Notes under the pieces: model-generated | Told to the model about the DNA's origin: nothing | Seen by the model: only the letters and a program-made list of their open reading frames with translations | Database searches by the model: none | Translations under genes and position numbers: made by a program | In this document: piece after piece, positions 25,905 to 54,940 of the stretch | Layout: every line of letters begins with the position of its first letter | How positions within the stretch are numbered: the first letter of the stretch is position 1 | Assembly: GCF_018143015.1 (NCBI RefSeq) | Contig: NC_054748.1 | Coordinates: forward strand, 14,250,967 to 14,314,966 | DNA: 64,000 nt | Direction: 5' to 3' | Source: Lytechinus variegatus | Lineage: Eukaryota > Echinodermata > Echinoidea > Temnopleuroida > Toxopneustidae

Positions 25905-25913
25905 GTCCCGCAT
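25905..25913 (+). repeat. Left 9-bp target duplication of MULE-like element
   Basis: GTCCCGCAT here matches GTACCGCAT at 27287-27295 with one difference. Confidence 0.75.
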
Positions 25914-27286
25914 GCGCGTTTCCGTTTTACACCCTGGCGAAGGCATTTTCCGGAAAAGTAGCCAAAAAGCGACTAGTGAAGAGTCTACGTCTACGTTGTA
26001 ATATCAGCAGGGCGCGCGATCCAAAGTCCGCACCGAAGTTATCCGCAGAACATACCGTACTTGCAGATGCAGCTGAGCTTATATACTTTCCAGGTTCAAT
26101 ACGAATGTTTGCCTTGATCATTTGCCTTGCCGATTTGCTGATGTCTGTCTTTCTCTCTATCTGTCTATATATCTATCTTTCAAATTCTATCTCTATCTAT
26201 CATATGTAACTGCAGTATCTATCTAATAATCTTCTCTGTCTCTCTCATTCTTTATCTAACATCTATCTATCTCAAATTCTCTATCTCTCTCTATCTATCC
26301 ATCCATCTGTCTGTCTTTCTCAATTTCTCTCTCTCTACCTACCTATGTAACTACAGTATGTATCTGTTAATATGTCGCTCTTCTCTCTCATTCTTGATCT
26401 ATCTGACATCTATCTATCTCTCAAATTCTATCTCTATCTATCTATCTATGTACTGCAGTATCTATCTATCTAATAATCTTCTCTGTCTCTCTCATTCTTT
26501 ATCTAACATCTATCTATCTCAAATTCTCTATCTCTCTATCCATCTATCTATCCATCTGTCTGTCTTTCTCTATTTCTCTCTATCTATTTATCTATTTTTT
26601 TACTATAGTATCTATCTATCTGTTAATAATCTCTGTCTCTCTCATTCTTTAATTATCTATTTAATATCTCTCTCTATCTATCTATCTATCTATCCATCTG
26701 TCTGTCTTTCTCTTATTCTCTCTATCTATTTATCTATCTATTTTTTTCACTTATCTATCTGTTAATTTGTTAATATTCTTTGTCTCTCTCCCTCTTTATC
26801 TATCTAACATCTATCTATCTCTCCTCTATCTATCCATCTGTCTGTCTTTCTCTATTTCTCTCTATCTATCTATATATCTATCTGTCTATCTGTTAATTTG
26901 TCTATCTTCTCTGTCTCTCTCATTCTTTATCTATCTAACATCTATCTGTCTCTCAATTTCTCTATCTTTCTCCTTCTCTAGCATCTGTCTGTCTTTTTTT
27001 CTCTCTTTATCTTTGTCCGTCCATATTTCTATCTACATCTCTCTCTCTCTTTCTATCTATCTATCCTCTCTCTCTTTCTCTCTCTCCCCCTCTCCCTCTA
27101 TATATCGACCTCTCTGTTTCTCCCCCCTCTCTCTTTATCTATCCATCCATCTCTCCCTCTCTCCCTCTCCATCCACCTCTCTCTCTCTATTTCTATCGAC
27201 CAGCGACGTGTGTAGACTCTTCACTAGTCGCTTTTTGGCTACTTTTCCGGAAAATGCCTTCGCCAGGGTGTAAAACGGAAAGGCGC
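25914..27286 (+). mobile_element. MULE-like TIR element filled with a tetranucleotide microsatellite
   Basis: TIRs of about 70 bp begin GCGCGTTTCCGTTTTACACC and end in its complement, continuing through CTGGCGAAGGCATTTTCC and AAAAAGCGACTAGTGAAGAG. A 9-bp target duplication flanks it. After the left TIR there is about 150 bp of unique sequence (ending TTTGCTGATGTCTGTC), then about 1.05 kb of CTAT/CTGT/CTCT repeats. The same element lies inverted at 53308-54940 with its own exact 9-bp duplication. Nine-base duplications and long TIRs suggest the Mutator superfamily; no transposase is present. Confidence 0.88.
26135..27195 (+). repeat. CTAT-type microsatellite, ~1 kb
   Basis: Interrupted (CTAT)n with CTGT, CTCT and ATCC variants, organised in a higher-order period of roughly 100-150 bp (blocks like TCTTCTCTGTCTCTCTCATT recur). 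Open frames of 135-168 codons rich in Leu, Ser, Ile and Tyr are simply translated microsatellite. Confidence 0.95.
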
Positions 27287-27576
27287 GTACCGCATACGCG
27301 GGTCATAAGTTGTAGGCAAGCCACGCGATCGCCGATACACGCCGACACGCGCCACCCGCAAGTCACTCACAAGCCGATGCACGTCGAGACAACGTCCAGC
27401 GCACCCCAAAACCTAATTCCAACCCATAACGCGCCTTGAACGCATGTGCAACCCAACTCCAACGCACATTGACGCATGAAGACGTGCTCGGACGACCACA
27501 AAACAATGCTGAACGTGTCTACAACTTACAGGTACCGCGCGCGGCAGCGTATCGCTGACGAACACGTGTCATAGCC

Positions 27577-27586
27577 TATAAAAAGG
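27577..27586 (+). promoter_or_regulatory. TATA box of a decayed transposon gene
   Basis: TATAAAAAGG lies about 70 bp upstream of an ATG in good Kozak context (CACCGCCATGC, ATG at 27646). The arrangement looks like a core promoter of the parental element's gene, preserved after internal deletion. Confidence 0.5.
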
Positions 27587-27645
27587 CTGCCCTCGACTAT
27601 TCAAATCATAACCGCACGATACATCACCGTATCAACACCACCGCC

Positions 27646-27696
27646 ATGCCGAAGAAAACTCCTGTGAACCCCACCTTTGTATACCAATTCCTATAA
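27646..27696 (+). pseudogene. Orphan start of a transposon gene, 16 codons
   Basis: Reads MPKKTPVNPTFVYQFL and then TAA. The basic N-terminus, strong start context and TATA box upstream suggest the first residues of a transposon-encoded protein whose body has been lost from this non-autonomous copy. It is too short for family assignment, and it may be chance. Confidence 0.35.
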
Positions 27697-28459
27697 ACGT
27701 TGTCAATACGCCATTATACGGTAGCTGTAAGTTACAAACACGCTCAGCAAGCCTTGCTGCCATCCGGAGCACGCCCCCACACGTCAACACACGCTGGAGC
27801 CAAGCTACACACACGTTCAAAGCACGTTACTCATAGGTTAGAAGTAAGTTCCAGGGCACGCTGGACACCATCTCGACGCACATCGACCCATGAGCAACTC
27901 ACGAGCAACGCGCGCCAACGTGTACCAACGATCGCGCAACTTGCCCACAACCCATGGCCCGCGTACATGGCGTATGCGGGACGCACGAGCCATACGCTGG
28001 CACACGTCGAAAAACCCCGTGCCCGCACAAAATCCTTCGACGACCCCGCCGCACGACGACGCACACCAGCGTGCCCCAGCGCACTCTCAACGCATGCAAA
28101 ACCCACCCGCAACGCACTCGACGCACGCCAGCGCACTCGCCAAACCCCTCACACGTCGGGCACACGCTGTCCAAAACGCCAAGGTGTGACAGCGCCTTAC
28201 GTTAGGCTATCGTAGGGCATAAGTTGTGTACGCCAGCAATACGCTAAGCATTCGTTGGAATACGTTACTTATAAGTTAACGAAGCGTTCGATATAAGTTA
28301 CTAATACGTTATGTGTACGTCCAACTCGTTATGAATACGCTAAGTATACGCCCAGAGTTGAAAAAAACAACAAAGTTCAGCGTATGCCGACGTTTTAGAG
28401 AAATTTTGATACGTCGGGCATACGCTGTCTAAAACGCCAAGGTGTGACAGCGCCTTAAA

Positions 28460-29614
28460 AGGGCATGCATGATAGAATCAACTTTCAAGAGAAGGTGAAA
28501 AATATATGCAATGATACCAAGCTAGGTTTCGGCCACACGAAGAGGAACTTATGTAAATAACTAGAGTAGATCACTAGATATTACAGATAGATGAATAATA
28601 GATGCATGAAGATATTCATCCGTTTGAGGCAATGATATTTGAACGTTCAATAATATGATGCTAAATACTAAAATAAAAGAATGTAAGCATGGTGTGAACA
28701 AATTCATTATGTTAATTAGGACAAAATAATAAGGTAGCAATATCAAATTTGTGATACCAGGCAGGATATGATTAGCATAGCGAGAAATGGTCAATAAAAG
28801 GGTGTTGAAATAAGATAAGAATTAAAAAGAAAATAAAATAATAAAAACTTAATCAAGCATTGTAATGAGTAATAACAGTTACAAATAACGTTACCATTTA
28901 GATAATGATATTGGTGGAAAAAATAAATAAAATGAAATAAAAAGGGCATACATGACATGACAGAGGAACATACATGAATTTGTCAATGTTGCTTACCTCT
29001 AAATGTACATGTACCAGTCCCATAACTTACTATGGCTATTAGAGCTATGCACAAAATCTAATCTAAATGTAAAAGGGAAAATGAAATAAGTGTTCATGGA
29101 GATAATTAACAAAATATAAAAAAAAAAAAAAAAAAAAAAACAATAAAAATGGCACTAATTACCTACTGAAAAGGGTCAAACAATTTAGGATCCAGTAATA
29201 ATGAGAAAATGCTGTTGCATTCACTAGCTACTCAGAATAATGCATGCTTGTATGAAAGTGTACAAAAGCCAGCACATTATTACCTATCCATTTGAGGAAT
29301 TATTGTAAATTTGTATATAAAAAAGATAATGCAAAACTAATAAAGAGAATAATGTATGCATGGTATAAGGTGCTTCATAATGTCCGTTTAGACAAAAGAT
29401 TAAGGTACCAATATATAATTTGTGATGCCGAACAGGATATAATTAGCGATGCAAATAATGGTGAAGAAAAGGGTGTTGTAATGAAAATAAAGATTAAAAC
29501 AAAATAAATAGCCATGCATTGTAATAGTAATAATAATAATAATAATTAATAAGCAGTTGCTGTACCATTAAACAACATTACCATTTGGATGATATTGGTG
29601 GAAGAAAAAAAAAT

Positions 29615-29646
<32 letters not shown>

Positions 29647-30081
29647 CTGATGAAATAAAGGAAGTATGCATGACATGGCCAGAGGAACATACTAGTACAT
29701 TAAATCATCAATATTACTTACATGTAGCTGTAAAGTATCAGTCTACATAACCTACTATGGCTTTCTGGACTAAGCACAAAATCTTATCTAAAAATAAGAG
29801 GGGAAATGCAATTATATATTCATTAAAGCAGACATAAAATTCCAATGAATTGCAAAACGAAAAAACATTAATTATTGGAAAGGGTCAAACAATCTAGAAT
29901 CCAGTAAGAATAAAGAAAAGCAGTTGTATTGACTAGCGAAACATGTACTGAAATCATAGCAGTAGAGGTTTTACAATTTACCAGTCAACATAACCTGCTA
30001 TAGCTTTCAGAGCAATGCCTAATGGGGAAATAATGTGTTTATTTCAGAAAATAAAATTCCAGCAATTATGCATGAAAAATG

Positions 30082-30113
<32 letters not shown>

Positions 30114-32292
30114 CAATCATTACTGGAAAGAGCCAAACAATCTAGGATCCTGTAATAATGAGAGGAAATGCAGTTGTATTGACTGTTTTATACATGTAGG
30201 TAAACATGTATAGTAATCATGACAACATAAAATTTTAGAATTTGTTTCAATTTCGGCTGACATGATTACTCAAGTTTTAAATCATAATGAGGGGGTCATT
30301 ATTCTCATCTTAATGGATGAAAAATGGGACAAGTTTAATTTCATTATTGGAATAGCTCCATCATAAAACCTGTCCAATTGGTTATCAAGTCAAAATCAAT
30401 AGCGATAGCAAAGTTTTCTCTCATTTTGATGAAGAAAAACTAAAAAAATAATTGTATTTCATATGATTAGCATAGCAAATAATGGTGAATAAAAGGGTGT
30501 TGTAATAAATTAAAAATAAGGATTAAAACAAATTAAATAGCCATGCATTGTAATAACAGTTACTGTACCATTAAACAACATCACCATTTGGATGATATTG
30601 AAGAGAAAATAGATAAATAAATATGATGAAATAAAGGAAGCATGCATGACATGACCAGAGGAACATACATTAAATAGTCAATATTACTTACATGTAACTG
30701 TAAACTACCAGTCTACATAACCTACTATGGCTTTCTGGACTAAGCACAAAATCTTTATCTAAATATAAAAGGGGAAATGCAATAATGTATTCATTAAAGA
30801 CATAAAATTCCAATAATTTGTAAAATGAAATGACATTAATTATTGGAGAGGGTCAAACGAAACTAGAATTCAGTAAAAATAAAGAAATGCAGTTGTATTG
30901 ACAAGCTAAACATGTACTATAATCATAGCAATAGAGGTTATTGTTTCAATATATCAGTCAACATAACCTACTATGACTTTCAGTGCTATGCCCAATAAGT
31001 ATAGTCAAATTGTAAAAGGGAAATAATGTATTCATTTCAGAAAACATAAAATTCCAATTGTTATGCATGAAAAAAAAAAAAAAATGACATTAATTATTAC
31101 TGGAAAGGGTCAAACAGTATAGGATCCAGTAATAATGAGAGAAAATGCAGTTGTATTGACTGTATTACATAGTCGTAGTAATCATGACAATATAAATTGT
31201 TTGAATTTGTTTCAATTTTGGCTTACATGATTACATCAAGTTTCAATTCATAATGAAGAGGTCATTATACTCATCTTAATGGATGAAAAAAAAGGACAAG
31301 TAATTTCATTATTAGAATAGGTCCATCATAAAACCTGTCCAATCAGTGTACCAGTCAAAATCGTATCCATGATCGGCTGAATAGTGATAGCATAGTTTTC
31401 TCTCATTTTGATGAAGAAAAAATAGAACAATAATTGTATGTCATTTTGCTTCGATTTGCTTCATTTCATTCTGGTTTGATTCACTTCAATAATTTGTGAT
31501 GCCAACAAGGAAATGATTAGCATAGCAAATAGTGGTGAAAAAAGGTGTCGTAAATAAAAAATAAGGATTAAGACAAGATAGTCATGCATTGTAATGATAA
31601 ACGACAGTTACTGTACCATTAAATAACATTACCATTTGGATGATATTGGTGAAAAAAATAAAATTGAAATAAAGGAAGCATGCATGACATGACTAGAGGA
31701 ACATACATTCAATAGTCAATATTACTTACATGTAGCTGTAAAGTACCAGTCTACGTAACCTACTATGGCTTTCTGGACTAAGCACAAAATCTAATCTAAA
31801 TATAAAGGGGAAATGCAATAATGTATTCATTGATGACATAAAATTACCAACAATTTGTAAAATGAAATGACATTAATTATTGGAAAGGGTCAAACAATCT
31901 AGAATCCAGTAAAAAAAAGAAATGCAGTTATTGATTAGCTAAACATGTACTATAATCATAGCAATAGAGGTTATTGTTTCAATTTACCAGTCAACAAAAC
32001 CTATGATGATTCAGGGCTATGCCCAAAAGTCTAGTCAAATTGTAAAATGGAAATAATGTAGGCCTATTCTTTTAAGAAAACATAAAATTCAAATTATTAT
32101 GCATGAAAAATGAAAATGACATCAATTATTACTTGAAAGGGTTGTGCAATCTAGGATCCAACAATCTAGGATCCAGTAATAATGAGAGAAAATGCAGTTG
32201 TATTAACTGTATTACATAGACATACATGTAGTAATCATGACAATATAAATCGTTTAAATTTGTTTTAATTTTGGCTTACATAATTACTCAAG
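28460..32292. repeat. Satellite-like array, ~0.7-1.05-kb units
   Basis: The landmark GATGATATTGG recurs at about 28905, 29588, 30590 and 31640, and GACATGACCAGAGGAACATA or variants at about 28960, 29670, 30650 and 31690, all in the same order. Units differ by internal insertions and poly-A stretches (29120, 30080, 31070). The final unit runs into the LINE ORF1 repeat at 32293 without a break in homology (TTTCAATTCATAATGAAG), so this DNA appears to be the natural downstream neighbour of that ORF1 on the minus strand. Confidence 0.82.
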
Positions 32293-33626
32293 TTTCAATT
32301 CATAATGAAGGGGGTCATTTTAATGGATGAAAATGGGATAATTAATTATTTAGCAATTATCCAAATGGGGATAGAACATGATGGGGTATATAATACCTGT
32401 ATCGAAGATGGATCAGGCCTACTCCATTCGTCCTTGCAAAGTTATGGGGATTGAATGTGACTCGGTCTCCAATGATATTCATAATTACCATAGTCATGAT
32501 GTTGCATGTGATAAGTAAATCTACTCAGTCCAAGTTGACCACTGTGAAGAAGGTGCATTAGGGTTTTTAGTCTGTAGCAGTACTTTGGTTCCTTGAATCC
32601 TTATCCTGGTTTTCAATTGCTTGGTTCTGCGAATGTTATATGTAACTGATGCTAGATGACCACGCTCGCGTTTCATAGATGGGGGGTAGGTCAGTACGGA
32701 CGGTTACACGGTCGCCATCCCTACGGTTGCCGTCAGTAGCCCGGGGTTGCCTTGGCTGCTCGAAGGCGCGAAGAATTCGGTCCCGGTCGTATATCTATGC
32801 AAAACGGACTATGATGGGATCAGAAGCTTCAGGGGCCGGGATTCCGCTGGCTCCGTTGTGGGTCCTCTTCGTAGGTAGACGATGAGCATTGGTAATTTGA
32901 ATTTGGTCTGCCTCTTCAACGGGAATTTCCAGTAACTTGCCCAATGCAAAAGATGTGGTCTTGTAAATATCCTCATTGGTTTGTTTGGGGATGCCGTAGA
33001 ACAACAATTTTTTTTTGTTTTTTTGTGTGGTGTATTTCTAGGTTCAGTAGCTTGTCGTCGAAATCAGCTCTAACTTTGGCAATAAAACGTTCTATACCAG
33101 GTAGTAATATCCGCTTCTACGGTAGATATTCTCGCTGAAGTATCCGCTGAAGAAATTTCAAAGTCATGTACAGCGGAATTCACCATCCTGATGTCTGATT
33201 TAACAGCATTAAGATCCGAAATTACGTGATCCAATTTGATATCAAAATCACGCTGGAAATCCGTGAACATTTTCCGCATTTCAAGTAGCAAGTAGTCATC
33301 TTTATGGTCCTTAGGCGTGTAGGGGTCTGAAGCGGGAGAAGAAGTAGGAGGGTCAGCTTGATGGGCTGCCATGGCTCCGGGGGGTACGGCTGTAGGCAGG
33401 TTGGCCACGAGTTGGGGGGCTTGTTGGAAACAGTTACGGGAACTGGCGAAGGTGTTTTGGCACGTTGATTACCATGGCTAGAGTCCTTTTGGGTGGAAGG
33501 TTTTAACTCAAATTATAGTCACGACTATTCGAAGAATTCTGCATTTTGCAAACAAAATGTAGTATTATGTAGAATATATGTTCAAACTTGCAGTCAGAAT
33601 TAGAAGTCAAAAGGCATCTCTCCAAG
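32293..33626 (-). repeat. Tandem duplication unit 1 carrying a broken LINE ORF1
   Basis: A 1334-bp unit repeated directly at 33627-34948; both begin TTTCAATTCAT(A/C)ATGAAG and end GGCATCTCTCCAAG. The ORF1 in this copy is disrupted. Minus-strand parts at 33408-33070 and 33007-32795 lie in different frames, with a T-rich insertion near 33009-33022, and the reading frame start (MQNSSNSRD) is shifted out of register by extra bases near 33510. Confidence 0.88.
32795..33408 (-). pseudogene. Broken duplicate of the LINE ORF1
   Basis: Reverse-strand copy of the 337-aa ORF1 in unit 1. The part from 33408 retains MANLPTAVPPGAMAAHQADP through the coiled coil (DLNAVKSDIRMV). The part from 33007 retains MLFYGIPKQTNEDIYKTTSF through PDPIIVRFA. 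Insertions and frame changes separate them. Paralogy with 33854-34867 is unambiguous. Confidence 0.85.
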
Positions 33627-34948
33627 TTTCAATTCATCATGAAGGGGTCATTTTAATGGATGAAAATGGGATATTTAACTATTTAGCAATTATCCAAATG
33701 GGGATAGAACATGATGGGGGTATATAATACCTGTATAGAAGATGGATCAGGCCTACTCCATTCGTCCTTGCAAAGTTATGGGGATTGAATTTGACTCGGT
33801 CTCCAATGATATTCAAAATTCCATAGTCATGATGTTGCATGTGATAAGTAAATCTACTCAGTCCAAGTTGACCACTGTGAAGAAGGTGCATTAGGGTTTT
33901 TAGTCTGCAGCAGTACTTTGGTTCCTTGAATCCTTATCCTGGTTTTCAATTGCTTGGTTTTGCGAATGTTATATGCAACTGATGCTAGATGACCACGCTC
34001 GCGTTTCATAGATGGGGGTAGGTCAGTTCGGACGGTTACGCGGTCGCCATCCCTACGGTTGCCGTCAGTAGCCCGGGGTTGCCTTGGCTGCTCGAAGGCG
34101 CGAAGAATTCGGTCCCGGTCGTACATCTTTGCAAAACGGACTATGATGGGATCAGGAGCTTCGGGGGCCGGGGTTCCGCTGGCTCCGTTGTGGGTCCTCT
34201 TCGTAGGTAGACGATGAGCATTGATGATTTGAATTTGGTCTGCCTCCTCAACGGGAATTTCCAGTAACTTGCCCAATGCAAAAGATGTGGTCTTGTAAAT
34301 ATCCTCATTGATTTGTTTGGGGATGCCGTAGAACAACAAATTTTGTTTTCGGTGGTGTATTTCTAGGTTCAGTAGCTTGTCGTCGAAATCAGCTCTAACT
34401 TTGGCGATAAAACGTTCTATCCCAGGTAGTTTATCCGCTTCTACGGTAGATATTCTCGCTGAAGTATCCGCTGAAGAAATTTCAAGGTCATGTACAGCGG
34501 ATTTCACCATCCTGATGTCTGATTTAACAGCATTAAGATCCGAAATTACGTGATCCAATTTGATATCAATATCACGCTGGAAATCCGTGAACATTTTCCG
34601 CATTTCAAGTAGCAAGTAGTCATTTTTAGGGTCCTTAGGCGTGTAGGGGTCTGAAGCGGGAGTAGAAGTAGGAGGGTCAGCTTGATGGGCTGCCATGGCT
34701 CCGGGGGGTACGGCTGTAGGCTGGTTGGTCACGAGTTGGGGAGGCTTGTTGGAAACAGTTACGGGAACTGGCGAAGGTGTTTTGGCACGTTGATTACCAC
34801 GGCTAGAGTCCTTTTGGGTGGAAGGTTTTCTCAAATTATAGTCACGACTATTCGAAGAATTCTGCATTTTGCAAACAAAATGTAGTATTATGTAGAATAT
34901 ATGTTCAAATTGCAGTCAGAATTAGAAGTCAAAAGGCATCTCTCCAAG
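33627..34948 (-). repeat. Tandem duplication unit 2 carrying an intact LINE ORF1
   Basis: Second 1322-bp unit, about 95% similar to unit 1 by eye. The junction between units is exact (CTCTCCAAG then TTTCAATTCATC), consistent with a tandem duplication or template jump rather than two independent insertions. Confidence 0.88.
33854..34867 (-). CDS. LINE ORF1 protein (coiled coil, RRM-like, CTD), 337 aa
   Basis: This looks like a full-length ORF1p, the RNA-binding chaperone of a non-LTR retrotransposon RNP. The N-terminus (about residues 1-75) is basic and Pro/Ser-rich (YNLRKPSTQKDSSRGNQRAK). Residues 85-165 are a heptad-rich segment (MRKMFTDFQRDIDIKLDHVI onward) fitting a trimerising coiled coil. 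Residues 170-260 match the L1-type RRM region (RKQNLLFYGIPKQINEDIYK, then INAHRLPTKR and PDPIIVRFAKMYDRDRILRA). The rest is CTD-like (DLPPSMKRERGHLASVAYNI). Start chosen at the Met before QNSSNSRDYN, which opens the frame. A small overlapping minus frame (33891-33679) follows in another register. The matching ORF2 is not adjacent. Confidence 0.82.
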   Translation of the reverse strand: MQNSSNSRDYNLRKPSTQKDSSRGNQRAKTPSPVPVTVSNKPPQLVTNQPTAVPPGAMAAHQADPPTSTPASDPYTPKDPKNDYLLLEMRKMFTDFQRDIDIKLDHVISDLNAVKSDIRMVKSAVHDLEISSADTSARISTVEADKLPGIERFIAKVRADFDDKLLNLEIHHRKQNLLFYGIPKQINEDIYKTTSFALGKLLEIPVEEADQIQIINAHRLPTKRTHNGASGTPAPEAPDPIIVRFAKMYDRDRILRAFEQPRQPRATDGNRRDGDRVTVRTDLPPSMKRERGHLASVAYNIRKTKQLKTRIRIQGTKVLLQTKNPNAPSSQWSTWTE

Positions 34949-36280: not shown

Positions 36281-36289
36281 GGGTGCTGA

Positions 36290-41951: not shown

Positions 41952-41955
41952 TCAC

Positions 41956-42868
41956 TGTTATATATAAGAATAATTTTAGAAGAATTGTAAAAGCAATTAC
42001 ATTCATCTATTAGTTATTTCCCTTTAAGGTTAGCCAAGAATTGTAAAGAACATTCAAGAATGTCTTTTTATTATGCAGGCCTTGCCTATTTAAAAGGCCA
42101 AGGAGTTGTATTGTTATTTCTGAATAGAGATTAGGAACAATAGGCTTAGCTATGCTATTGACACTCTTGATTTCAATGAGGTCATTCAAGAGTCTTCTGG
42201 ATTTTTGACTGCTCCATTATAGGAGAATGTTCTTTTGAAAGAAGGTGTTAGAACCTTCTATGGTGGTGACATTTTTTTAGAAGCTTCTAGATTAGTTGAA
42301 ACTTAGTATATATAGCTGCAGTTTCTTTAATCACATCATCATATCATCATATCATATTAGATCACACCATCACATCATATGAGAGCAGGAGATCACATCA
42401 CATCATATGAGATCACTTCACCAGATCAGATCAGAGCAGTTTATGCATCAATGAACTGTTTGCAGTTATTTTAAGAGAGAAATTATCAGTTCTCATCGAG
42501 ATCATCAACATCATCAACCTGTTCAATGAACACGCTTCAACCCATGGATTGCTGAAATTGACTGTTAATCATCATCAACATCGTCTTCACGGACATTTCA
42601 ACTCGTTGCAGTGACTCTTATTATTCATCGGACTTCAACATCAGTTTCATCATCGCCATCATTGTGAATTTTCGCCAGTCAACTGGGATTTTATCATTTG
42701 GATTATTACTTGGATATAGTATCATCACTTCGGGATTTTACATCGGACACTTCAAGAGATTTATGTAAGATCATTATTTGTTTTATTTATGTACAATTAT
42801 TTCCTGTAAATAAAAAAAGAGGAAATTAAAAATCAAATTTACTTGTTATTTGTTGCAGTATCGTAACA
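41956..42868 (+). repeat. Left LTR
   Basis: 913 bp, near-identical to 47995-48906. A TATA-like TATATATAGC lies at about 42308, and AATAAAAAAAG lies near the right edge as possible polyadenylation signal. A cluster of ATCATCA/ATCACATCA words occupies the middle. Confidence 0.95.
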
Positions 42869-43094
42869 AATAATTTTGGGGGCTTGTCCGGGAAACGAAA
42901 ACCAAATTTGTACAAGCCAAGGCAATTTTGAAACAAAACCAAATTTGTATAAGCCAATTTGAAATTAAAAACAGTTTTTCAGGAAACGAAAGCCAATTTG
43001 AGACGAAAGTCAATTTAAAACAAAAGCCAATTTGAATCGGAAACATTTTGGAAATTTTTGGAAAGTTCTAGAATTTACTGTACTGTGTTATTAC

Positions 43095-44480: not shown

Positions 44481-45100
44481 TAGGGATACAGGGGCTGCAC
44501 AGTCCCTGATGGTGCCAGGGGATTCGGCTCTTCCTCCGGAGAGTTCAGAGAATGCCAACGTCTTAGTTCAAGGTATTGGCCCAAATTTCATGTCGGTTCC
44601 TTTGCATAAGGTCGACTTAAAGTGTGACTAGTTAGTGGTCCTGTGACTGTTGGTGTCGTTCCAGAATTACCCATGAAAGGTGTTGATTTCTTGTTAGGTA
44701 ACGACTTGGCTGGAGATAAAGTTGTTGCATCTCCAGTGGTTTCGGAAAAGCCCGTTGAGGTAGCTGAAACTGAATTGTTGCAGGAAGATTTTCCAGGGAT
44801 TTTCCCGGATTGTGTTGTTACTAGGTCTCAGACTCGTAGAGCTGAAAAGGATGATGCGGAATCTGCTGATGTAGAGGAGAGTACTGATGTCTGGTTAGCT
44901 GAAACCTTTTTCAAGGATTTGAATGGGGATAGTGTTGAAGGCTCTGTTGCTAACAATGATAGTTTGTTTAGTAAATCCTCCCTTGTACAGGCACAACAGG
45001 CAGACCCAGAATTAAAAAGCTTGTCACAAAAAGCATGTTCTGAGGCTGAGCTGATAAGGTTCCTGAGTGCTTTTGCTTTTATGTCAAAGATGACATTTTG
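44480..45100 (+). pseudogene. protease and spacer region of the LTR element (fossil)
   Basis: Retains an aspartic-protease-like start (LRDTGAAQSLM, around 44480-44515) and a downstream MKGVDFLLGNDLAGDK typical of gypsy protease ends. An acidic spacer follows before the integrase. Boundaries are approximate. Confidence 0.65.
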
Positions 45101-46180
45101 ATGAGGAAATGGAGACCTCCCCGGAGACCAGCTGATGAAGATTGGTGTATAATTCACCAGGTTGTAGTTCCTCCTTGTTACCGCACAGATATTCTGAAAA
45201 TGGCTCATGAGTTACCTATGGCAGGTCATGTCGGTATTCGGAAGACAGAAGATAGAATTATGAGGCATTTCTATTGGCCTAAGATGCACAAAGATGTTGT
45301 GCATTTCTGTAAGACATGTCACACATGTCAGATTATTGGTAAGGCACAGCCTTCTATCAAGCCTGCTCCATTGATACCCATTCCTGCATTTGATGAACCT
45401 TTTACTAGGGTTCTTGTTGATTGTGTCGGACCCTTACCCCGAACGAGGTCGGGTCACAGATTTCTCCTGACGATTATGGACTTGTCTACACGGTTTCCAG
45501 AGGCGATACCTTTGAGGGGTATCACTGCGAAGACAGTGGTGCAGGCGTTAGTGCAGTTTTTTACTAGGTACGGTCTGCCGAAGGAAATTCAATCTGATCA
45601 AGGGTCGAATTTCATGTCAGGAATATTTCAGCAAGTTATGAAGGAGTTGGGAATAAAGCAGATTAAGTCCTCTGCTTATCACCCACAGTCCCAAGGAGCG
45701 TTAGAACGCTATCATCAGACCCTGAAGACCATGATTAGGGCTTATTGTGAAGACTATCCCGATGACTGGGATAAAGGGATCTCATTCCTACTGTTTGCAA
45801 CTAGGGATTCCCCAAATGAGTCCACAGGTTTCAGTCCATTTGAATTGGTCTATGGTCATGAGGTTAGGGGTCCCCTAAAGCTTATCAAAGAGAGGTTTAT
45901 GGTTCAGGATGATGATGTAAACCTTCTAGACTATGTGTCAAAGTTTAGAGAAAGGCTCTCAAAAGCTTGTGATGTGGCTAAGGAACACTTGAAAGAGTCG
46001 CAGGGAAAAATGAAAGCTCACGCTGACAAAAATGCAAAAGAGCGAAGTTTCAAGCCTGGAGACAAAGTGTTAGTGTTATTGCCTTTGCAAGGTGAGCCCT
46101 TGAAAGCTAGGTTTAGTGGTCCCTACATAGTCAAAAAGAAATTGAATGATGTCAACTATGTGATCAGTACCCCCTGATCG
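45100..46180 (+). pseudogene. integrase region of the LTR element (fossil)
   Basis: HHCC zinc domain (HELPMAGHVGIRKTEDRIMR, then HFCKTCHTCQ), then the DDE core with VDCVGPLPRTRSGHRFLLTI, IQSDQGSNFMSGIFQ and SAYHPQSQGALERYHQTLK. A gypsy-type C-terminal segment follows (FKPGDKVLVLLPLQGEPLKA, then FSGPYIVKKKLNDVNYVIST). It lies upstream of RT. Confidence 0.93.
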
Positions 46181-46209
46181 AAGAAAGTCTCAAAGAGTTT
46201 GTCATGTAA

Positions 46210-47785
46210 ACATGTTAAAAGAATACTTTGAGCGAGAGGCTAGTCAGCCAATAGGTACAACACAGGTCAAAGAAGAAGAAAAACATGTAGATGTACATGA
46301 AGAAGAATGCTATGGAAAGACAGATAATGAATTGTCTTATACAGATGTGTCTAAGAACGAACCATGTGGTGTAAAGTTGTCTAACTCAGAGATGTTAGGA
46401 AACATGGATGAGGCATTAAAACACCTGCCTGAAGATCAAAGAAATGATATATCTGGCCTGTTAAGAGAATATGAGAATGTATGTAAAGACAAACCAGGTC
46501 GTACACCTTTAACTGTACATGATGTAGACGTAGGTGATGTAAGACCTATCAAACAGAATCCTTATAGGCTCAATCCAAGCAAGTTGGAAATGGTGAATAA
46601 GGAAATACAGTTTATGTTAGATAATGACATAATCGAACCGAGTCAGAGTAGTTGGAGTTCTCCCATTGTAATGGTTCCAAAGCCAGACGGCTCTCAGAGA
46701 TTTTGCATTGATTACCGAAAGGTAAATGCAGTAACTAAGACTGACTCGTATCCAATTCCTAGGTTAGAAGATTGTATTGATAGGGTTGGAAATTCTGCCT
46801 ATATCACAAAGATAGACTTGCTTAAAGGATATTGGCAAGTGCCACTGACTGACCGAGCCAAAGAGATATCAGCCTTTGTCACACCTGAAGGCTTGTTTCA
46901 ATGCAAAGTCATGCCTTTTGGAATGAAAAATGCACCTGCAACCTTCCAAAGGTTGACAAATCAAGTGATTGCCGGACTTGACAATTGTGTCGTATACATA
47001 GACGACATCCTAGTATACAGTGATACTTGGAATGATCATTTGAGAGCACTGTTTGACAGGGCTGGACAAAGCCAATCTAGTAGTGAATCTGATGAAAAGT
47101 GAATTTGCCAAGGCAAAGGTCACATATCTTGGTCATGTGGTTGGTCAAGGGCAAGTGCTACCAAGAGAAGCCAAGATACAAGCTATCTTAGACTTCCCAA
47201 TTCCCACAACTAAGAAAGAATTGCTCAGATTCTTAGGTATGAGTGGCTTCTACAGGAAATTTGTTCCAAATTACAGTACTGTGGTTAGTCCTCTGACAAA
47301 CCTGCTGAAGGCAAAAGTGAAGTATGTTTGGTCTGACGAATGTCAAAGATCATTTGAGAAATTAAAGGCCATTTTGGTGAATGAGCCTATTTTGGCAGCT
47401 CCAAACTTCACAAAGCCATTCAAAGTAGCAATTGATGCATGTGATGTTGGAGTAGGAGCAGTATTGCTCCAAGAAGATGAAGAAGGCATCGAAAAACCAG
47501 TGTGCTACTTCTCTAAGAAACTCAATCGGTTTCAAAAGAAGTATTCAACTATTGAAAAAGAGGCCCTGAGTCTCGTACTAGCCCTTCAGCAGTTTGAGGT
47601 GTATCTAACCAATGGAGAGATTACAGTCTATACAGATCACAATCCTCTTGTGTTTTTGGAGATATTCAAAACAAAGAACCAAAGACTGTACAGATGGAGC
47701 CTAATGCTCCAACCATTCCCTTTGAAAATTGTACACATAAAGGGAAAGAATAATGTAATTGCTGATGCTCTATCAAGAGTATAAA
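46210..47785 (+). pseudogene. reverse transcriptase and RNase H region of the LTR element (fossil)
   Basis: Gypsy-type RT motifs are WSSPIVMVPKPDGSQRFCID, KIDLLKGYWQVPLTDRAKEI, MPFGMKNAPATFQRL and CVVYIDDILVYSD. They are followed by the thumb (YLGHVVGQGQV, LRFLGMSGFYRKFVPNYS) and RNase H (KVAIDACDVGVGAVLLQ, STIEKEALSLVLALQQFEVY, VYTDHNPLVFL). It ends with KIVHIKGKNNVIADALSRV, where in ordinary gypsy elements the integrase would follow. Confidence 0.93.
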
Positions 47786-47994
47786 AAGTGAAATTATTCA
47801 TGATTTTGACCAAGTGTGTCATTTGAAGAAAACATCTTTGATGTTCATTTATTTTAACATGTTTGTTAAGTACTATATCTTTGTACACGATAACTGTAAA
47901 TGATTTATCAAGATAACTTTGAACAGTTAAAAGAAAAAGTAATCCTAAAGAAACCTTTACTACGGTAAAGCTTTCTTTTCCCCGGTGGGGGAGG

Positions 47995-48906
47995 TGTTAT
48001 ATATAAGAATAATTTTAGAAGAATTGTAAAAGCAATTACATTCATCTATTAGTTATTTCCCTTTAAGGTTAGCCAAGAATTGTAAAGAACATTCAAGAAT
48101 GTCTTTTTATTATGCAGGCCTTGCCTATTTAAAAGGCCAAGGAGTTGTATTGTTATTTCTAAATAGAGATTAGGAACAATAGGCTTAGCTATGCTATTGA
48201 CACTCTTGATTTCAATGAGGTCATTCAAGAGTCTTCTGGATTTTTGACTGCTCCATTATAGGAGAATGTTCTTTTGAAAGAAGGTGTTAGAACCTTCTAT
48301 GGTGGTGACATTTTTTAGAAGCTTCTAGATTAGTTGAAACTTAGTATATATAGCTGCAGTTTCTTTAATCACATCATCATATCATCATATCATATTAGAT
48401 CACACCATCACATCATATGAGAGCAGGAGATCACATCACATCATATGAGATCACTTCACCAGATCAGATCAGAGCAGTTTATGCATCAATGAACTGTTTG
48501 CAGTTATTTTAAGAGAGAAATTATCAGTTCTCATCGAGATCATCAACATCATCAACCTGTTCAATGAACACGCTTCAACCCATGGATTGCTGAAATTGAC
48601 TGTTAATCATCATCAACATCGTCTTCACGGACATTTCAACTCGTTGCAGTGACTCTTATTATTCATCGGACTTCAACATCAGTTTCATCATCGCCATCAT
48701 TGTGAATTTTCGCCAGTCAACTGGGATTTTATCATTTGGATTATTACTTGGATATAGTATCATCACTTCGGGATTTTACATCGGACACTTCAAGAGATTT
48801 ATGTAAGATCATTATTTGTTTTATTTATGTACAATTATTTCCTGTAAATAAAAAAAGAGGAAATTAAAAATCAAATTTACTTGTTATTTGTTGCAGTATC
48901 GTAACA
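47995..48906 (+). repeat. Right LTR
   Basis: 912 bp, differing from the left LTR at about two positions. It starts directly after the purine-rich GGTGGGGGAGG and ends TCGTAACA before TCACC. Confidence 0.95.
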
Positions 48907-48910
48907 TCAC

Positions 48911-49219
48911 CTTTATTATCATTTAGCTATGCATTATTTTTATTTCCAAATACAATATTTTTTTTCATATAGAACCCTAAGTATGTCACTGAAAGAAGAC
49001 CTTTAGGCCTTTAAACTGGAAAAATAATACTTAATTCCACGAAAACTACTAAGAACTAGTAGAAAAGTAGAAAATATTAATAAAAGGTGAAACATTTGCC
49101 CATTGCAAAAATATTTCTTTTATGTTGTGTGAAATTTGTACCTAAACTAGTATACTTTAATGTTATTGCCCGGTGATGAACCTGAACTTGTACTGCATTC
49201 TTTTCTACAGATGTGTAGT
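48911..49219. other. Intergenic DNA, no gene seen
   Basis: AT-rich flank between the right LTR and the TTAA MITE. Nothing recognisable. Confidence 0.4.
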
Positions 49220-49223
49220 TTAA

Positions 49224-49822
49224 AGGACAAGTCCACCCCAACAAAAACTTGATTTGAATAAAAAGAGAAAAAATTCAACAAGCACAACACTGAAATTTTC
49301 ATCAAAATCGGATGTAAAATAAGAAAGTTATGGCATTTTAAATTTTCGCTTATTTTCAAAAAATAGTTATATGAACGAGCCAGTTACATCCAAATGAGAG
49401 AGTTGATGACATCACTCACTATTTCTTTTGTCTTTTATTATATGAAATATGAAATATTTTTATTTTTTTGTCATTGTCATGTAAAATGAAGTTTCATTCC
49501 TCCCTAAACACGTGGAATTCCATTATTGTAACATTTTGTGCTTCAGGCAAGGAGGTCCTAATTGTCAAATTCGTAAAAATTGAAATATTATATAATTCAA
49601 ACAATAAAAAACAAAAGAAATAGTGAGTAAGTGACATCATCGACTCTCTCATTTGGATGTAACTGGCTCGTTCATATAACTATTTTGTTGAAAATAAGCG
49701 AAACTTTGAAATGTCATAACTCTCTTATTTTACATTCGATTTTGATGAAATTTTCAGCATTGTGCTTGTCTGATTTTTTTCTATTGATTCAAATCAACAT
49801 TTTTCTAAGGTGGACTTGACCT
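49224..49822. mobile_element. TTAA-target foldback MITE (copy 2)
   Basis: TTAA at 49220-49223 and 49823-49826, ends AGGACAAGTCCACCCC and (inverted) GGTGGACTTGACCT. The halves are long inverted repeats (for example ATGAACGAGCCAGTTACATC near 49371 and its complement near 49660). It immediately adjoins the left edge of arm B. Related to 37085-37650. Confidence 0.9.
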
Positions 49823-49905
49823 TTAAGTAACATTAAATGCTTAATTACTAGTAATATATTTATTCAAAATGATTCATTGTTTAATGTCTTATTGCAGTGA
49901 AGTAA

Positions 49906-49980
49906 CTACTTTTTATCAACTTGGCCTTCATATTTCTTCTTGGCACTTGTGATACTTAAACAGCTTGGGAAGTGGGAAAC
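49906..49980 (-). pseudogene. Exon-like remnant 3 (arm B), possible terminal exon
   Basis: On the minus strand TTTTTTACCATGCAG is followed by an open stretch reading VSHFPSCLSITSAKKKYEGQ, VDKK and TAG. This copy is cleaner than arm A (17679-17750). The gene is not recognised. Phase relative to remnant 2 is compatible with splicing only in one of its frames. Confidence 0.4.
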
Positions 49981-50485
49981 CTGCATGGTAAAAAAAGAGA
50001 AAAAACAAAATGAGCTGCTGATATAAATTATTCTTACTCATCTAGTCTAGTTTATCAAGAAGATTTAAACTTTTTATTAGGCCCTACTCTTCCATGCAAT
50101 ATTATTTACATAAAGCACATGATATACAGCCAGATAAAAATCACAGATCACTCTTTATAGATCATAATTCATAAAGCTTTTTTGATTAAGTGTGTAAACT
50201 CATTCCAATATATATCATAAGATTACTCTCAATATTTTGTCCTTTTTTATTCTGTCTACAGAGTAACTGAGTTTTAAAGTAATTTTATGTATGACTAAAG
50301 AGACATAGACCATAAGTATGCATTGATGAGAATGGAAATACTGGTAAATCTGGTAAATCCAAATAAATATTAACTCACAATGGAGCTTTACTATCTGGGA
50401 TAGCATGATTCAGAAAAATTTGCTAGAGTCCCCCCCCCCAAATAAAAAGGAATCAGGAGGCCTTTTCGTACGAAAACAAGCATAC

Positions 50486-50604
50486 CTTGAAAGTTTTGAG
50501 TTCAGATATCCTGTTCTTCATCAGATTGTAACTCTTGGTGATGTGAGAATGGTAGTTGTACTTCTGACTGGGCTGGGACTGCTAGGAACTTGATCCCATT
50601 TGAT
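50486..50604 (-). pseudogene. Exon-like remnant 2 (arm B)
   Basis: Minus-strand segment between acceptor TTTTGAATTGCAG and donor GTATGC. In phase 0 from remnant 1 it begins IKWDQVPSSPS; in the next frame SEVQLPFSHHQELQSDEEQD is followed by a stop. One- to four-base differences from arm A (17044-17158) change the frame, so at least one arm is dead. Confidence 0.42.
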
Positions 50605-50763
50605 CTGCAATTCAAAATACACACAATACTTTTACAGTTACAATGTAAGTCATTTCCAGCTAGTCATATCCTAAGCCTATGAATATTTCCAACTAGAAAA
50701 AGAGCTGGTCTTGACCAAAACTTCCTTCTCTCTGTATCTGTTCCACTGACGAAATATGCTTAC

Positions 50764-50816
50764 CTGGCTCTGTTTCCACTGACCATCTTCATTGTCAACA
50801 AGAGTCAGTAAATGCT
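50764..50816 (-). pseudogene. Exon-like remnant 1 (arm B)
   Basis: Minus strand reads LLTLVDNEDGQWKQSQ and is followed by GTAAGC, a consensus-like donor (50763-50758). Its left splice boundary is not clear. Counterpart of 14861-14922. Confidence 0.45.
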
Positions 50817-51294
50817 TCAAGCACAGATGGACTACTATAGCAAGGCCTTTTGTCAATCTTCATAATAGTACATCAGGCCAGCTTTGATAGATGTAGGATA
50901 ATTATTATTTGTGTGATAATTTGGCTCTCACTCATTCACCAGTGCGAGACAATTAATTTTTTTTGCACTCATCTATAAACATGTGAATCTGTACGTCTAA
51001 GTGAGTTCCTCTTTAAGGTTAGCTTGCTCGCAAGTTTCTCCACCTATACTTATAAAATTTGAAATGGGGCACTATAAATTTTCTCAACCCTTCCCATTAA
51101 AATTACACACTCATGATATACTATAATTGAGCAGTTTGAAACCCGACAAAAAATGTTGGCCCCCCCCCAAATAAAAATAATTTAACTCCGCTATACTAGG
51201 CTAGATCTAATTATAATTTTAGTCCAATGGTACAGACAGAGACTAGAATAAAGTTATATTAAATCTTCATAGAGAAAAAGAGTAAAACCAGATC

Positions 51295-51976
51295 TAGGGT
51301 GTCTGAAGCCACACTGAAAAGTGTCAGCATGAAACAGGCTGATTTAGGGGAAAATATGGCACATGTTTTTCAGGAAGTTCAGGCTACTAGAAAAATGTGA
51401 TCTGAATTGATTATGAACTTGTGTTTGGCATGTATGGAAAGAGTAAATTCAGGGGCTTCTTTTGACAGTAAGGACAAGTTTATATAATCATATTAAATGA
51501 GGATTTAGAAATAAATTGCAAACCCTTATTTCTGTGTGTGTTGAGATTGCCATTTCCCCATGCGTTTTCTATGGGAAAATGAAATTTCTGTTTTGCACAA
51601 TTTTTTTCACTTTGTCGCAATTTTTCATTGTGATCTCGTTTCCAAATCTTTATAAAAATCATACCATCAGACAGAGCATAAAAAATCCTATTTGACTCTT
51701 TATGGACAAGTTTTTGGCATTAATAATAAATTTACAACAGCTCTCGGAGGCTAAAAATTTGGATTTGTGTGTGTCCATTTCTTAACTACACAGTCTATGG
51801 CAGAGAAATGCTGAAAATTGACCTAATATCATTCTTCTTTTTTGCAGCCAATAATTTGATTTTTTTCAAAAATATTACATTTCTGTCAGTCTGAAGGTCA
51901 TTTCTCTTCGAATTCACAAAGAAAATGTGATATTTTCTTGAAAAAAGAAAAATAATTCTTTTCTCCAGACACCCTA
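51295..51976. mobile_element. 682-bp TIR element present only in arm B
   Basis: Ends TAGGGTGTCTG and CAGACACCCTA are perfect 11-bp inverted repeats. CCAGATC (51288-51294) recurs at 51977-51983 as a 7-bp (possibly longer) target duplication. Arm A at about 11985-12000 shows the uninterrupted CTAGATCTGTCTG-type site. No coding sequence is seen; superfamily not assigned. Confidence 0.72.
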
Positions 51977-52049
51977 CCAGATCTAGAAATTCCTTTTTAG
52001 AAATCTAGATCTAAATTAGACCTATCGTAGGGCCTCACTTTTAGTAAAA

Positions 52050-52110
52050 AAGAATCAGAGATGCCAAGTTCAAAGACCGGCTAATAGCTGGTCTTTGAAC
52101 TTGGCATCTC
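52050..52110. repeat. Local inverted repeat around GATGCCAAGTTCAAAGACC
   Basis: GATGCCAAGTTCAAAGACC and its complement GGTCTTTGAACTTGGCATC face each other with a short spacer (about 52061-52108), giving a near-perfect hairpin that lies next to the SINE in arm B but not in arm A. Confidence 0.75.
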
Positions 52111-52289
52111 TGCTATGCGTGAGGTTTTCTGTGAATCTGAGTGAGATCACAGACATTGTGTACAATGTATATGGGGATAGGCTGTGATAGTTGCGTGAGA
52201 CAGAGATTTGAGGAGATGAACAAGAGTCCAAAATGCTTAAGTATCACACATAATGCGTGAGACTTGGGTAGCTCTGAAGAATAACGTTA

Positions 52290-52640
52290 AAATCTGTCTC
52301 AAGCTCAGTCGGTAGAGCGGGGGTTTCGGATTCCGGAGACCCAGGTTCGATTCCCACCCAAAGTGGAGCGCTAGTGCCCTATGGTAAGGCATTTATCTTC
52401 ATTACCAGGTCCCTAGGAAAGAACCTTAAGCCCCGTTGGTCCCCTGGTTGTTTGCTCACAGGCATTCGTGCTTCTTGGCAGTCAGGTAAAAAATCTCGGT
52501 ATAACAAATCATTCCATGACCGTCACCATGGGCAAGGCAAAATCTATCAATATCGTTCCGAATAGATTTAGTTCATTTAAATTTAATTTCTTTTTAAAGG
52601 CAGAGAATTATATTGATTCATATAAAGATGAAATAGGGGT
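52290..52640 (+). mobile_element. tRNA-derived SINE (arm B copy)
   Basis: A box GCTCAGTCGGTAGAGC (about 52305-52320) and B box GGTTCGATTCCC (about 52346-52357) are correctly spaced for a polymerase III promoter. Body words are TGGTAAGGCATTTATCTTCA, ACCAGGTCCCTAGGAAAGAA and GGTCCCCTGGTTGTTTGCTC, then a tRNA-unrelated AT-rich tail. Shared with arm A (11560-11900, minus). Confidence 0.85.
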
Positions 52641-52849
52641 GTCCAAAAATCAGTAGGCACTGGCACAACTTTAATTAAACTTCAACTTAAGCTTAATTGT
52701 TTGACACTAATTCCCAACACCAGTACCTAATGACCTAACCCAGGGAGCTCCGGCCCACTTCATGGGCTGGAGCCCCCTGGGTTACTATAATGACCTAGCT
52801 GGCCTATATATGTATCGGTAATTTCGCATCCGGCTGGCACCGGCGGTAT

Positions 52850-53289
52850 TAGACAGCTGGCAGCCGTCTGTTTCGAGTTTTTTTAACATATTTTTTTTAT
52901 TTTCTCCTCGTACACAGACGGCTCGCTATCGTGCTCCCACCATTAGGGGACTCGCAATGCAAAATCCCCCCGTTGGGGCTCTCCAATTTTGTCTTTAATG
53001 AATAAAAATTTTGAAAATTAACGCGACCAAAATGCAAATTAATATTCCCTCTTGACATTAATTGCCAAAAAACAGAGAAAAATCAAGTTAAAAGGAACAA
53101 AAACAGTGACTTACCTCGGCTGTCGCGCAAATTCACTTCCCCGTTTTATCCGATCTTAAGTACATAAACATATGGCCATTGAGTCCCCTGTACAGATCGC
53201 GCTAGAACTTCGGTCTCTGTATTTGGTGAGAGAAGACAACGGAGTTCAGCTGAACAACCAACATAACAGAGACCGAAGCTCTTGGTCTA
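52850..53289. mobile_element. 440-bp insertion with exact 9-bp target duplication
   Basis: CGGCGGTAT at 52841-52849 and again at 53290-53298 flanks sequence starting TAGACAGCTGGCAGCC and ending CTTGGTCTA, so the outermost inverted match is only TAGAC. Internal hairpins exist (CTTCGGTCTCTGT near 53209 with ACAGAGACCGAAG near 53266). Arm A has the empty site ATGCCGCCGGTGCCAGCC at about 11288. Class unknown; no open frame of note. Confidence 0.78.
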
Positions 53290-53298
53290 CGGCGGTAT

Positions 53299-53307
53299 CA
53301 ACGGCCA
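53299..53307 (+). repeat. Left 9-bp target duplication of MULE-like element (copy 2)
   Basis: CAACGGCCA, repeated exactly at 54941-54949. It starts on the base following the target duplication of the 440-bp insertion. Confidence 0.92.
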
Positions 53308-54940
53308 GCGCGTTTCCGTTTTACACCCTGGCGAAGGCATTTTCCGGAAAAGTAGCCAAAAAGCGACTAGTGAAGAGTCTACACACGTCGCTGGTTGCAC
53401 GCAGCGTGCGACACAGGCGAGTCCACCACCGCATGCAATTTGCACAGTTACTGATCTCGGCACTTCATATACAGAGAGAGCGACAGTCAGGAGTGAAATC
53501 CGAACATGCTTTTGCAGTCGCGTTGTTTATGATAGTTTTTTTTTCTTCTAAAAATATGACAGACAAAATCAAAATAAACAGATACTTATAATGGAAAGAC
53601 AAATTGAAGTTTGATGGATTGATACACTTAGAATCTGCCGAAAGATAGATATAGAAGACTGATAAATAGATAGAGACAAGATAGACAGATAGATAGATAG
53701 AAATAGAGAGAGAGAGAGGTGGATAGATAGAGAGAGAGGGAGGGAGAGATGGATGGATAGATAGATAAATAGAGAGAGGGGGAGAGACAGAGAGGTCGAT
53801 ATATAGAGGGAGAGGGGAGAGAGAGAAAGAGAGAGAGAATGATAGATAGATAGATAGATAGAGAGAGAGGGAGAGAGATGTTGTAGATAGAAATATGGAC
53901 GGACAAAGAGAAAGAGAGAAAAAAGACAGACAGATGCTCGAGAAGGAGAGAGATAGAGAATTTGAGAGACAGATAGATAGATGTTAGATAGATAGAAAGA
54001 TAAAGAATGAGAGAGACAGAGAAGATAGAGAAATTAACAGATAGATAGATACATAGATAGATAGATATATAGATAGAGAGAAATAGAGAAAGACAGACGA
54101 TGGATAGATAGATGAGAGATAGATAGATGTTAGATAGATAAAGAGGGAGAGAGACAAAGAATATTAACAAATTAACAGATAGATAAGTTAAAAAAATAGA
54201 CAGATAAATAGATAGAGAGAATAAGAGAAAGACAGACAGATGGATGGATAGAAAGATAGATAGAGAGAGATATTAAATAGATAATTAAAGAATGAGAGAG
54301 ACAGAGAAGATTATTAACAAATTAACAGATAGATAGATACTCTAGTTTAAAAATAGATAAATAGATAGAGAGAAATAGAGAAAGACAGACAGATGGATAG
54401 AGAGATAGATAGATAGAGAATTTGAGAGATAGATGTCAGATAGATCAAGAATGAGAGAGAAGAGCGACAAATTAACAGATAGATACTGTAGTTACATAGG
54501 TAGGTAGAGAGAGAGAAATAGAGTATAGACAGACAGATGGATGGATAGATAGAGAGAGATAGAGAATTTAAGATGGATAGATGTTAGATAAAGAATGAGA
54601 GAGACAGAGAAGATTATTAGATAGATAGATAGATACTGCAGTTACATAGATAGATAGAATTTGAGAGATAGATATATAGACAGATAGAGAGAAAGACAGA
54701 CATCAGCAAATCGGCAAGGCAAATGATCAAGGCAAACATTCGTATTGAACCTGGACATGCTGGAAAGTATAAGCTCAGCTGCATAAATTCAAGTACGGTA
54801 TGTTCTGCGGATAACTTCGGTGCGGACTTTGGATCGCGCGCCCAGCTGATAATGTAAACAAACGTAGACTCTTCACTAGTCGCTTTTTGGCTACATTTTT
54901 CTGGAAAATGCCTTCGCCAGGGTGTAAAACGGAAACGCGC
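53308..54940 (-). mobile_element. MULE-like microsatellite-bearing TIR element (copy 2)
   Basis: 1633 bp bounded by GCGCGTTTCC/GGAAACGCGC and flanked by an exact 9-bp duplication. TIR and subterminal sequence match 25914-27286, but in opposite orientation. This copy keeps about 250 bp next to its left TIR (including GCGACAGTCAGGAGTGAAAT) that copy 1 has lost. The interior is about 1.07 kb of GATA/GACA repeats. Arm A retains the unfilled site TGGCTGTTGATGCC at about 11282-11296. Confidence 0.93.
53640..54710 (-). repeat. GATA-type microsatellite, ~1.07 kb
   Basis: Interrupted (GATA)n with GACA, GAGA and GGAT variants and higher-order blocks. It is the reverse-orientation counterpart of 26135-27195 and part of the surrounding mobile element. 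Confidence 0.95.

Follow-up and report, generated by a model that had tools for sequence, protein, structure and literature searches.

A family of non-autonomous terminal inverted repeat elements carries a long GATA-rich array as cargo in the sea urchin Lytechinus variegatus

The window analyzed here, a 64,000-bp stretch of the Lytechinus variegatus genome (C9:14250967-14314966; assembly of 869,567,369 bases in 33 contigs), contains two copies of an element in which terminal inverted repeats (TIRs) enclose about 1 kb of GATA-rich repeat. These copies are very probably independent insertions of a subfamily of non-autonomous TIR transposons that carries the array as cargo. Members of the family share common ends, are bordered by 9-bp duplications at GC-rich palindromic targets, and have inherited one irregular array collinearly at unrelated sites. 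With TIRs, a target duplication of fixed length and no transposase gene inside, the element is a non-autonomous TIR DNA transposon resembling miniature inverted-repeat transposable elements (MITEs), and its array is a tandem repeat that is carried inside the element and spread with it.

Structure of the two window copies

Copy 1 (25914-27286) begins with a left TIR, the A-end (25914-25988, forward strand), followed by A-end subterminal non-repeat sequence (25989-26139, forward strand, with the inner boundary taken from the family consensus) and the GATA-rich array (approximately 26140-27198, forward strand, with the pyrimidine-rich strand shown). It closes on the reverse strand with a shortened B-end subterminal sequence and the right TIR (27199-27286, the TIR itself at 27212-27286), most of the B-end subterminal region having been lost from this copy. 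Copy 2 (53308-54940) begins with the B-end TIR (53308-53382, forward strand), and its remaining parts are on the reverse strand: B-end subterminal non-repeat sequence (53383-53640, inner boundary again taken from the consensus), the array (approximately 53641-54704, with the purine-rich strand shown), A-end subterminal non-repeat sequence (approximately 54705-54865) and the right, A-end TIR (54866-54940). The A-end subterminal sequence is on opposite strands in the two copies, which therefore lie in opposite orientation. The 9-mers bordering copy 1, GTCCCGCAT (25905-25913) and GTACCGCAT (27287-27295), differ at one position, and those bordering copy 2 are identical (CAACGGCCA at both 53299-53307 and 54941-54949). 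These features were read from the sequence, supplemented by a tabulation of flanks for the target duplications, and by Tandem Repeats Finder (TRF) and the consensus for the arrays.

TRF detected period-4 ATCT/AGAT arrays with 63-64% matches in both copies. Alignment of copy 1 with copy 2 gave 96.9% identity over 1,250 aligned bases, with 27 gaps amounting to 506 bp of indels, and the flanks and target duplications of the two copies differ. An earlier note, made from the window alone, had described this pair at the same positions and in opposite orientation, with common TIRs of ~70 bp and 9-bp duplications, one exact and one with a single difference, and this description is accurate, with the TIRs measuring ~75 bp. 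The ~1-kb CTAT/GATA microsatellite of that note is correct in its length and GATA-rich content, but not as a uniform tetranucleotide repeat, since the array is irregular and has a higher-order period of 145-149 bp.

Members of the family across the genome

A genome-wide search for the TIR and a tabulation of arrays and duplications, as the earlier note had proposed, revealed a large family. The 20-base end matched exactly at 634 forward and 624 reverse sites (1,258 in all), compared with 0 + 0 for the reversed control, which excludes a chance origin of the shared ends. Allowing up to three mismatches, a 30-base end matched at 724 + 729 sites (control, 0 + 0). Forty bounded copies were compiled, comprising the two window copies, 35 exact-end pairs on contig C1, and three copies (L044b, L045b and L046b) in which one partner end is inexact or differently placed. 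The array is present in 38 of the 40, and its orientation relative to the A-end is the same in all 38; in the remaining two, L013 and L044b, related ends enclose a different interior of ~1.8 kb.

We also classified by hand a sample of 100 listed exact-end sites covering C1:0-47.95 Mb. Eighty-five are in array-bearing copies, 14 in array-less copies and one is undecided (C1:23697596, L097), so that copies lacking the array, which the earlier note had named as the outcome that would undermine its reading if they prevailed, are the minority in this sample. For eight of the 85, the assignment was made without sequence, solely from an array word located inward of the end at a distance of up to 2.1 kb, and for three (C1:16001153, 16035504 and 26029722) it was made from an array copy farther inside. 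Because selection by exact ends favors young copies, the proportion of 85 in 100 is not valid for copies of all ages. Three more array copies, on C3, C5 and C10, were located through a rare base following the TIR.

The family consensus is ~1.6 kb long and consists of a 75-bp TIR, ~150 bp of A-end subterminal sequence, the ~1-kb array, ~290 bp of B-end subterminal sequence and a second 75-bp TIR. It was derived from 35 copies, leaving out the two array-less copies as well as L026, L040 and L041. The extra length of these three had been considered as a possible coding interior, but looks like later insertions of unrelated sequence. The longest open stretches in 37 copies span 98-350 codons, and those of the seven copies inspected in full (window copy 2 and six others) are of low complexity. 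A Pfam search at E 0.001 with the open stretches of L020, L036 and L044b returned no families. The pyrimidine-rich strand of array copies such as L020 and L036 contains YLSI-like low-complexity frames as long as 350 codons, and gene predictors could call these as genes.

Target duplications and target motif

Exact duplications of 9 bp border 20 of the 40 bounded copies, and 24 of the 40 have at most one mismatch at this length. By comparison, exact duplications number 0-1 at each length from 5 to 8 and from 10 to 14, and three at length 4. The 9-bp duplications are thus consistent across the sampled copies, as the earlier note's reading requires. The P element superfamily generates 8-bp target duplications, and an exact duplication of this length was found in none of the 40 copies.

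The target was described from 23 sites: of the 24 within one mismatch, L009 was set aside because it duplicates L010. In 21 of these 23 sites, position 4 is C and position 6 is G, a combination present in 4.4% of 9-mers from the same flanks, and CCNGG is found in 10 of 23 compared to 0.27% of control 9-mers. The palindromy of the targets was matched in one of 5,000 shuffles, and per-position counts yield the palindromic consensus GKCCSGGMC. GC content falls from 50% in the adjoining 50 bp to 43% between 50 and 100 bp and to 37% between 100 and 200 bp. A 9-bp palindromic target this sharp makes insertion sites easy to call. At C1:1827261-1830916, the array-less copy L013 and the array-bearing copy L046 are 23 bp apart and have the target sequence GGCCCGGCC in common; this arrangement is an insertion beside an existing copy.

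One irregular array is inherited with the element

All 35 copies used for the consensus align with it from end to end, with identities of 0.965-0.993 over aligned bases. Perfect TATC runs in the 38 array copies reach at most 28 bp, with none of eight or more units, and this, together with the higher-order period, sets the array apart from a clean short-unit microsatellite. Copy length ranges from 896 to 2,124 bp (35 copies), with two array copies below 1 kb in total, and many of the larger array indels are near one or two 145-149-bp units in length, while others are not. L027 (C1:25.63 Mb) and L034 (C1:32.24 Mb), 6.6 Mb apart, have one array haplotype (99.8%, 18 bp of indels), although the similarity of their flanks does not exceed that seen between other unrelated pairs. 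L009 and L010, which share flanks, are a local duplicate.

A 24-base array word occurs 987 times in the genome (control, 0). Given 59 such words in 38 copies, we estimate that the genome holds ~640 array-bearing copies. On C1:0-47.95 Mb, 69 of 74 array words lie no more than 2.5 kb from an exact end, in surroundings that make up 0.77% of the stretch; the other five belong to two interrupted family copies, L087 and L088. One such case is formed by L093 (a B-end) and L094 (an A-end), which are 34 kb apart, have the identical 9-bp flank GCGCCGGCC and enclose the array copy L088; the pair appears to be one element split by later insertions. L098 and L087 form a similar split case that spans 9.6 kb, with two mismatches between the 9-mers. 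The single irregular consensus, the haplotype common to L027 and L034, and the near-confinement of array words to family copies indicate that the array is cargo, in agreement with the earlier note.

That note had further proposed that the family seeds GATA arrays across the genome, and this extension was not supported. Perfect TATC tracts of at least 20 bp are present at 38 loci on C1:0-21.64 Mb, six of which have an exact end within 2.5 kb and 32 of which do not. Three of the 32 (L084-L086; 1.4-3 kb each read) match the array at 67-77%, with no TIR in the stretch read. Since only six of the 38 loci are near ends and the array cargo itself is degenerate, the family moves its own array but seems to contribute little to the clean GATA tracts.

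Several observations weigh against the interpretation that the array is inherited as cargo of a transposon. The bordering 9-mers have two to four mismatches in 10 of the 40 copies and five or more in six, which may be recombinants or wrongly paired ends. Insertions were read from occupied sites, the choice of copies by exact ends biases the sample toward young copies, and a transposase for these ends was not found. The consensus was built from the same 35 copies that were compared with it, and direct pairwise identities are lower (median 0.971, minimum 0.896). Substitutions relative to the consensus reach 3.8% in the array, compared to 0.3-0.7% in the TIRs and 1.1-2.2% in the subterminal regions. 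Moreover, pairwise divergence of the array is uncorrelated with that of the non-array sequence (r = -0.10; 567 of 595 pairs passing a length filter), where simple vertical inheritance would predict a correlation. Ambiguous alignment of the array, conversion among copies or a weak signal in the short flanks could account for the missing correlation.

Transposase and superfamily

The genome contains 31 matches to the MULE (Mutator-like element) domain PF10551, 35 to the Mutator domain PF20700, and 42 listed matches to the P-type domain PF21787. The earlier note had suggested looking for a MULE transposase with the same ends, and none was tied to the family in the surroundings read: among 30 MULE loci inspected of the 31, none has the family TIR within ~1.5 kb.

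The best lead to an autonomous partner is a candidate element at C1:5248400, which has a related end with a TIR 89% identical to that of the family and its own inner sequence. At least 385 of 410 bases of this inner sequence recur in 13 places, with shorter pieces elsewhere (43 matches). A 148-codon open stretch, a putative exon 2.5 kb inside this end, recurs in 22 matches at ~16 loci, with a protein identity of 83-100% except in two of the 22 (74% and 31%). Of these exon matches, 21 are within 6 kb of one of 15 related ends, which were hand-chosen from the 43 as long matches without the short pieces; two long matches with no exon match nearby (C7:25192454 and C4:1499473) were left out, and two split matches (on C8 and at C4:4562824) were kept because the exon is there. 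The 148-codon stretch gave a weak match to half of zf-AD (E 0.055, 14.1 bits compared to a cut-off of 28), and the sole match of a longer query around it was DUF1978 at E 0.1. This candidate partner revealed no catalytic domain, and the sequence beyond the exon on C1 matched other repeats.

In the same region, L106 (C1:5243688-5243897, forward strand) contains a fragment resembling a DEAD/RecQ-like helicase (E 0.012, below the cut-off) on the strand opposite the exon, and it is not tied to the element. Tandem units of ~1 kb at C1:4541489-4559054 match parts of L106 and are also present in other contigs, as a dispersed satellite-like repeat.

The element may belong to the Mutator (MULE) superfamily, including its Rehavkus-like group, whose transposase has a PHD finger. 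This placement would add to the explanation by carried cargo and not replace it, and we regard the chances for and against it as balanced. The combination of a 9-bp duplication and long TIRs agrees with the MULE/Rehavkus table of PMC6446971, in which MULE target duplications span 8-11 bp, and both MULE and Mutator domains are present in the genome. Within 25 kb of the 15 related ends there is one of the 35 PF20700 matches (C8:24374659, same strand as the exon, downstream) and one of the 31 PF10551 matches (C13:4493584, strand opposite the exon), 19 and 23 kb from the ends, respectively, with 0.03 expected each, a chance figure that is optimistic because repeats cluster. Against this placement, each coincidence concerns one end in 15 and is distant from it, one of the two is on the strand opposite the exon, and the 30 MULE loci lack this TIR nearby. 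For PF21787, none of the 32 matches used (of the 42 listed) is within 25 kb of the 15 ends, and the other 10, checked by eye, are not near them. Of the earlier note's non-autonomous Mutator-like family, then, the non-autonomous TIR element is supported, and the Mutator label, which derives from the duplication length, is not established.

Array-less relatives and the role of the array

A query with the array-less interior matched at least 40 places at 85-100% identity (40 scored of 84 candidates), which shows that there is an array-less subfamily. These array-less copies are more diverged, suggesting that they are older than the array-bearing ones. Array-less interiors between related ends contain CTT/CAT- and AGT-type tracts. 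Two further loci have unusual interiors. At L100/L104 (C1:44869294 onward), 56 bp of the TIR are followed directly by ~13 copies of a 22-bp AT-rich minisatellite, and at L090 (C1:4216530-4217530) a related end adjoins an interior full of repeated GAGTCA/TGACTC motifs.

It is conceivable, if improbable, that the array is a working part of the element, providing extra protein-binding sites or filler selected for transposition, and not a passenger. Such a role would fit the presence of the array in 38 of the 40 bounded copies, most of which are young, and also the simple-sequence tracts in two other interiors joined to such ends. Yet array-less relatives with related ends have spread too, to at least 40 scored places, and array length varies widely, down to the two sampled array copies of less than 1 kb in total.

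We consider it similarly doubtful that the ends of this lineage repeatedly acquire simple-repeat interiors, namely the GATA array, the CTT/CAT and AGT tracts, and the 22-bp minisatellite inside a shortened TIR. If so, the element would generate as well as carry tandem repeats, perhaps through faulty repair after excision, and each lineage would fix one array, which then spreads.

It is very unlikely that the element inserted without an array and that the array then arose or expanded separately at every site. Copy length does vary while the ends are constant, but such an origin is contradicted by the fit of 35 copies to one irregular consensus at 96.5-99.3%, by perfect TATC runs that never exceed 28 bp in the 38 array copies, by the single haplotype of the unlinked L027 and L034, and by the uniform orientation. 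Least probable of all is that the window copies are products of segmental duplication, for although the window contains duplicated stretches and the sampled pair L009/L010 is such a duplicate, the differing flanks and target duplications of copies 1 and 2 rule this out, and hundreds of further ends are present genome-wide.

Other repeats in the window

Direct repeats at 41956-42572 and 47995-48610 include two 300-bp stretches on each side that are 100% identical and lie 6,038-6,039 bp apart; they could represent either a tandem duplication or the two ends of a young element. Inverted repeats at 10079-10711 and 55538-56207, ~45 kb apart, are 94-97% complementary, and 18-bp-type tandem repeats are found on or beside each side.

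Discussion

Based on the data presented above, the independent insertion of a non-autonomous transposon with its array could proceed as follows. A transposase supplied in trans would recognize the TIRs and reinsert the entire unit at sites resembling GKCCSGGMC, with a stagger of 9 bp and with the array passively copied along. The array would later gain and lose blocks, often of about one or two 145-149-bp units, via slippage or unequal exchange. Before the present burst, it may have taken the place of the interior in an older subfamily that has the same ends but no array.

The family shows clearly, and in many copies, how a long GATA-rich array can be dispersed as the cargo of a transposon. 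Because such arrays look locally generated in annotation, and GATA tracts serve as markers, a hidden common origin matters both for microsatellite genotyping and for the reading of animal GATA clusters.

TU foldback elements of sea urchin are class II elements with repeats. The present family does not conform to the foldback type, which has long TIRs made of tandem repeats, as its 75-bp TIRs are free of repeats and it has a single internal array. Foldback elements in sea urchin are also mentioned in PMC4079207. No paper on this family was found in searches of open-licence literature.

MITEs that mobilize microsatellites are already known. In Lepidoptera, (GTCY)n repeats derive from MITEs (Coates et al. 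2011, as reported in the review PMC9659126), and tandem repeats inside class II elements are described from Drosophila (Tetris, PMC4079207) and from Xenopus and bivalves (PMC9659126). The present family is accordingly filed under this known phenomenon, of which it is a clear new case. Like the lepidopteran MITEs, it is a non-autonomous TIR element with a tetranucleotide-type interior repeat that spreads with it; compared by description only, it differs in repeat and host, and in having a ~1-kb degenerate array with a 145-149-bp period. Tetris, a foldback element of Drosophila virilis, is likewise non-autonomous, with 8-10-bp duplications, internal tandem repeats and no transposase found, and was placed in Mutator by its authors partly through duplication length (PMC4079207). 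In contrast with the TIR-220 repeats of Tetris, which lie inside its long TIRs and occur as satellite arrays in other places too (PMC4079207), the array described here is single, is enclosed by 75-bp TIRs, and, in the sample, turned up nowhere outside family copies. Rehavkus and other MULE elements with minisatellites resemble it in their 9-bp duplications, long TIRs and internal tandem repeat, but no Rehavkus-type transposase was tied to the present ends. The Rehavkus minisatellite is placed just before the 3' TIR (PMC6446971), and the array here is internal, with ~290 bp between it and the B-end TIR of the consensus. The Pearl/CvA MITEs of bivalves, again compared by description only, are also non-autonomous class II elements that carry tandem repeats (PMC9659126). 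Set beside these systems, the present family is less usual in its long array of fixed, irregular structure, in the near-confinement of that array to family copies in the sample, and in its sharp palindromic target.

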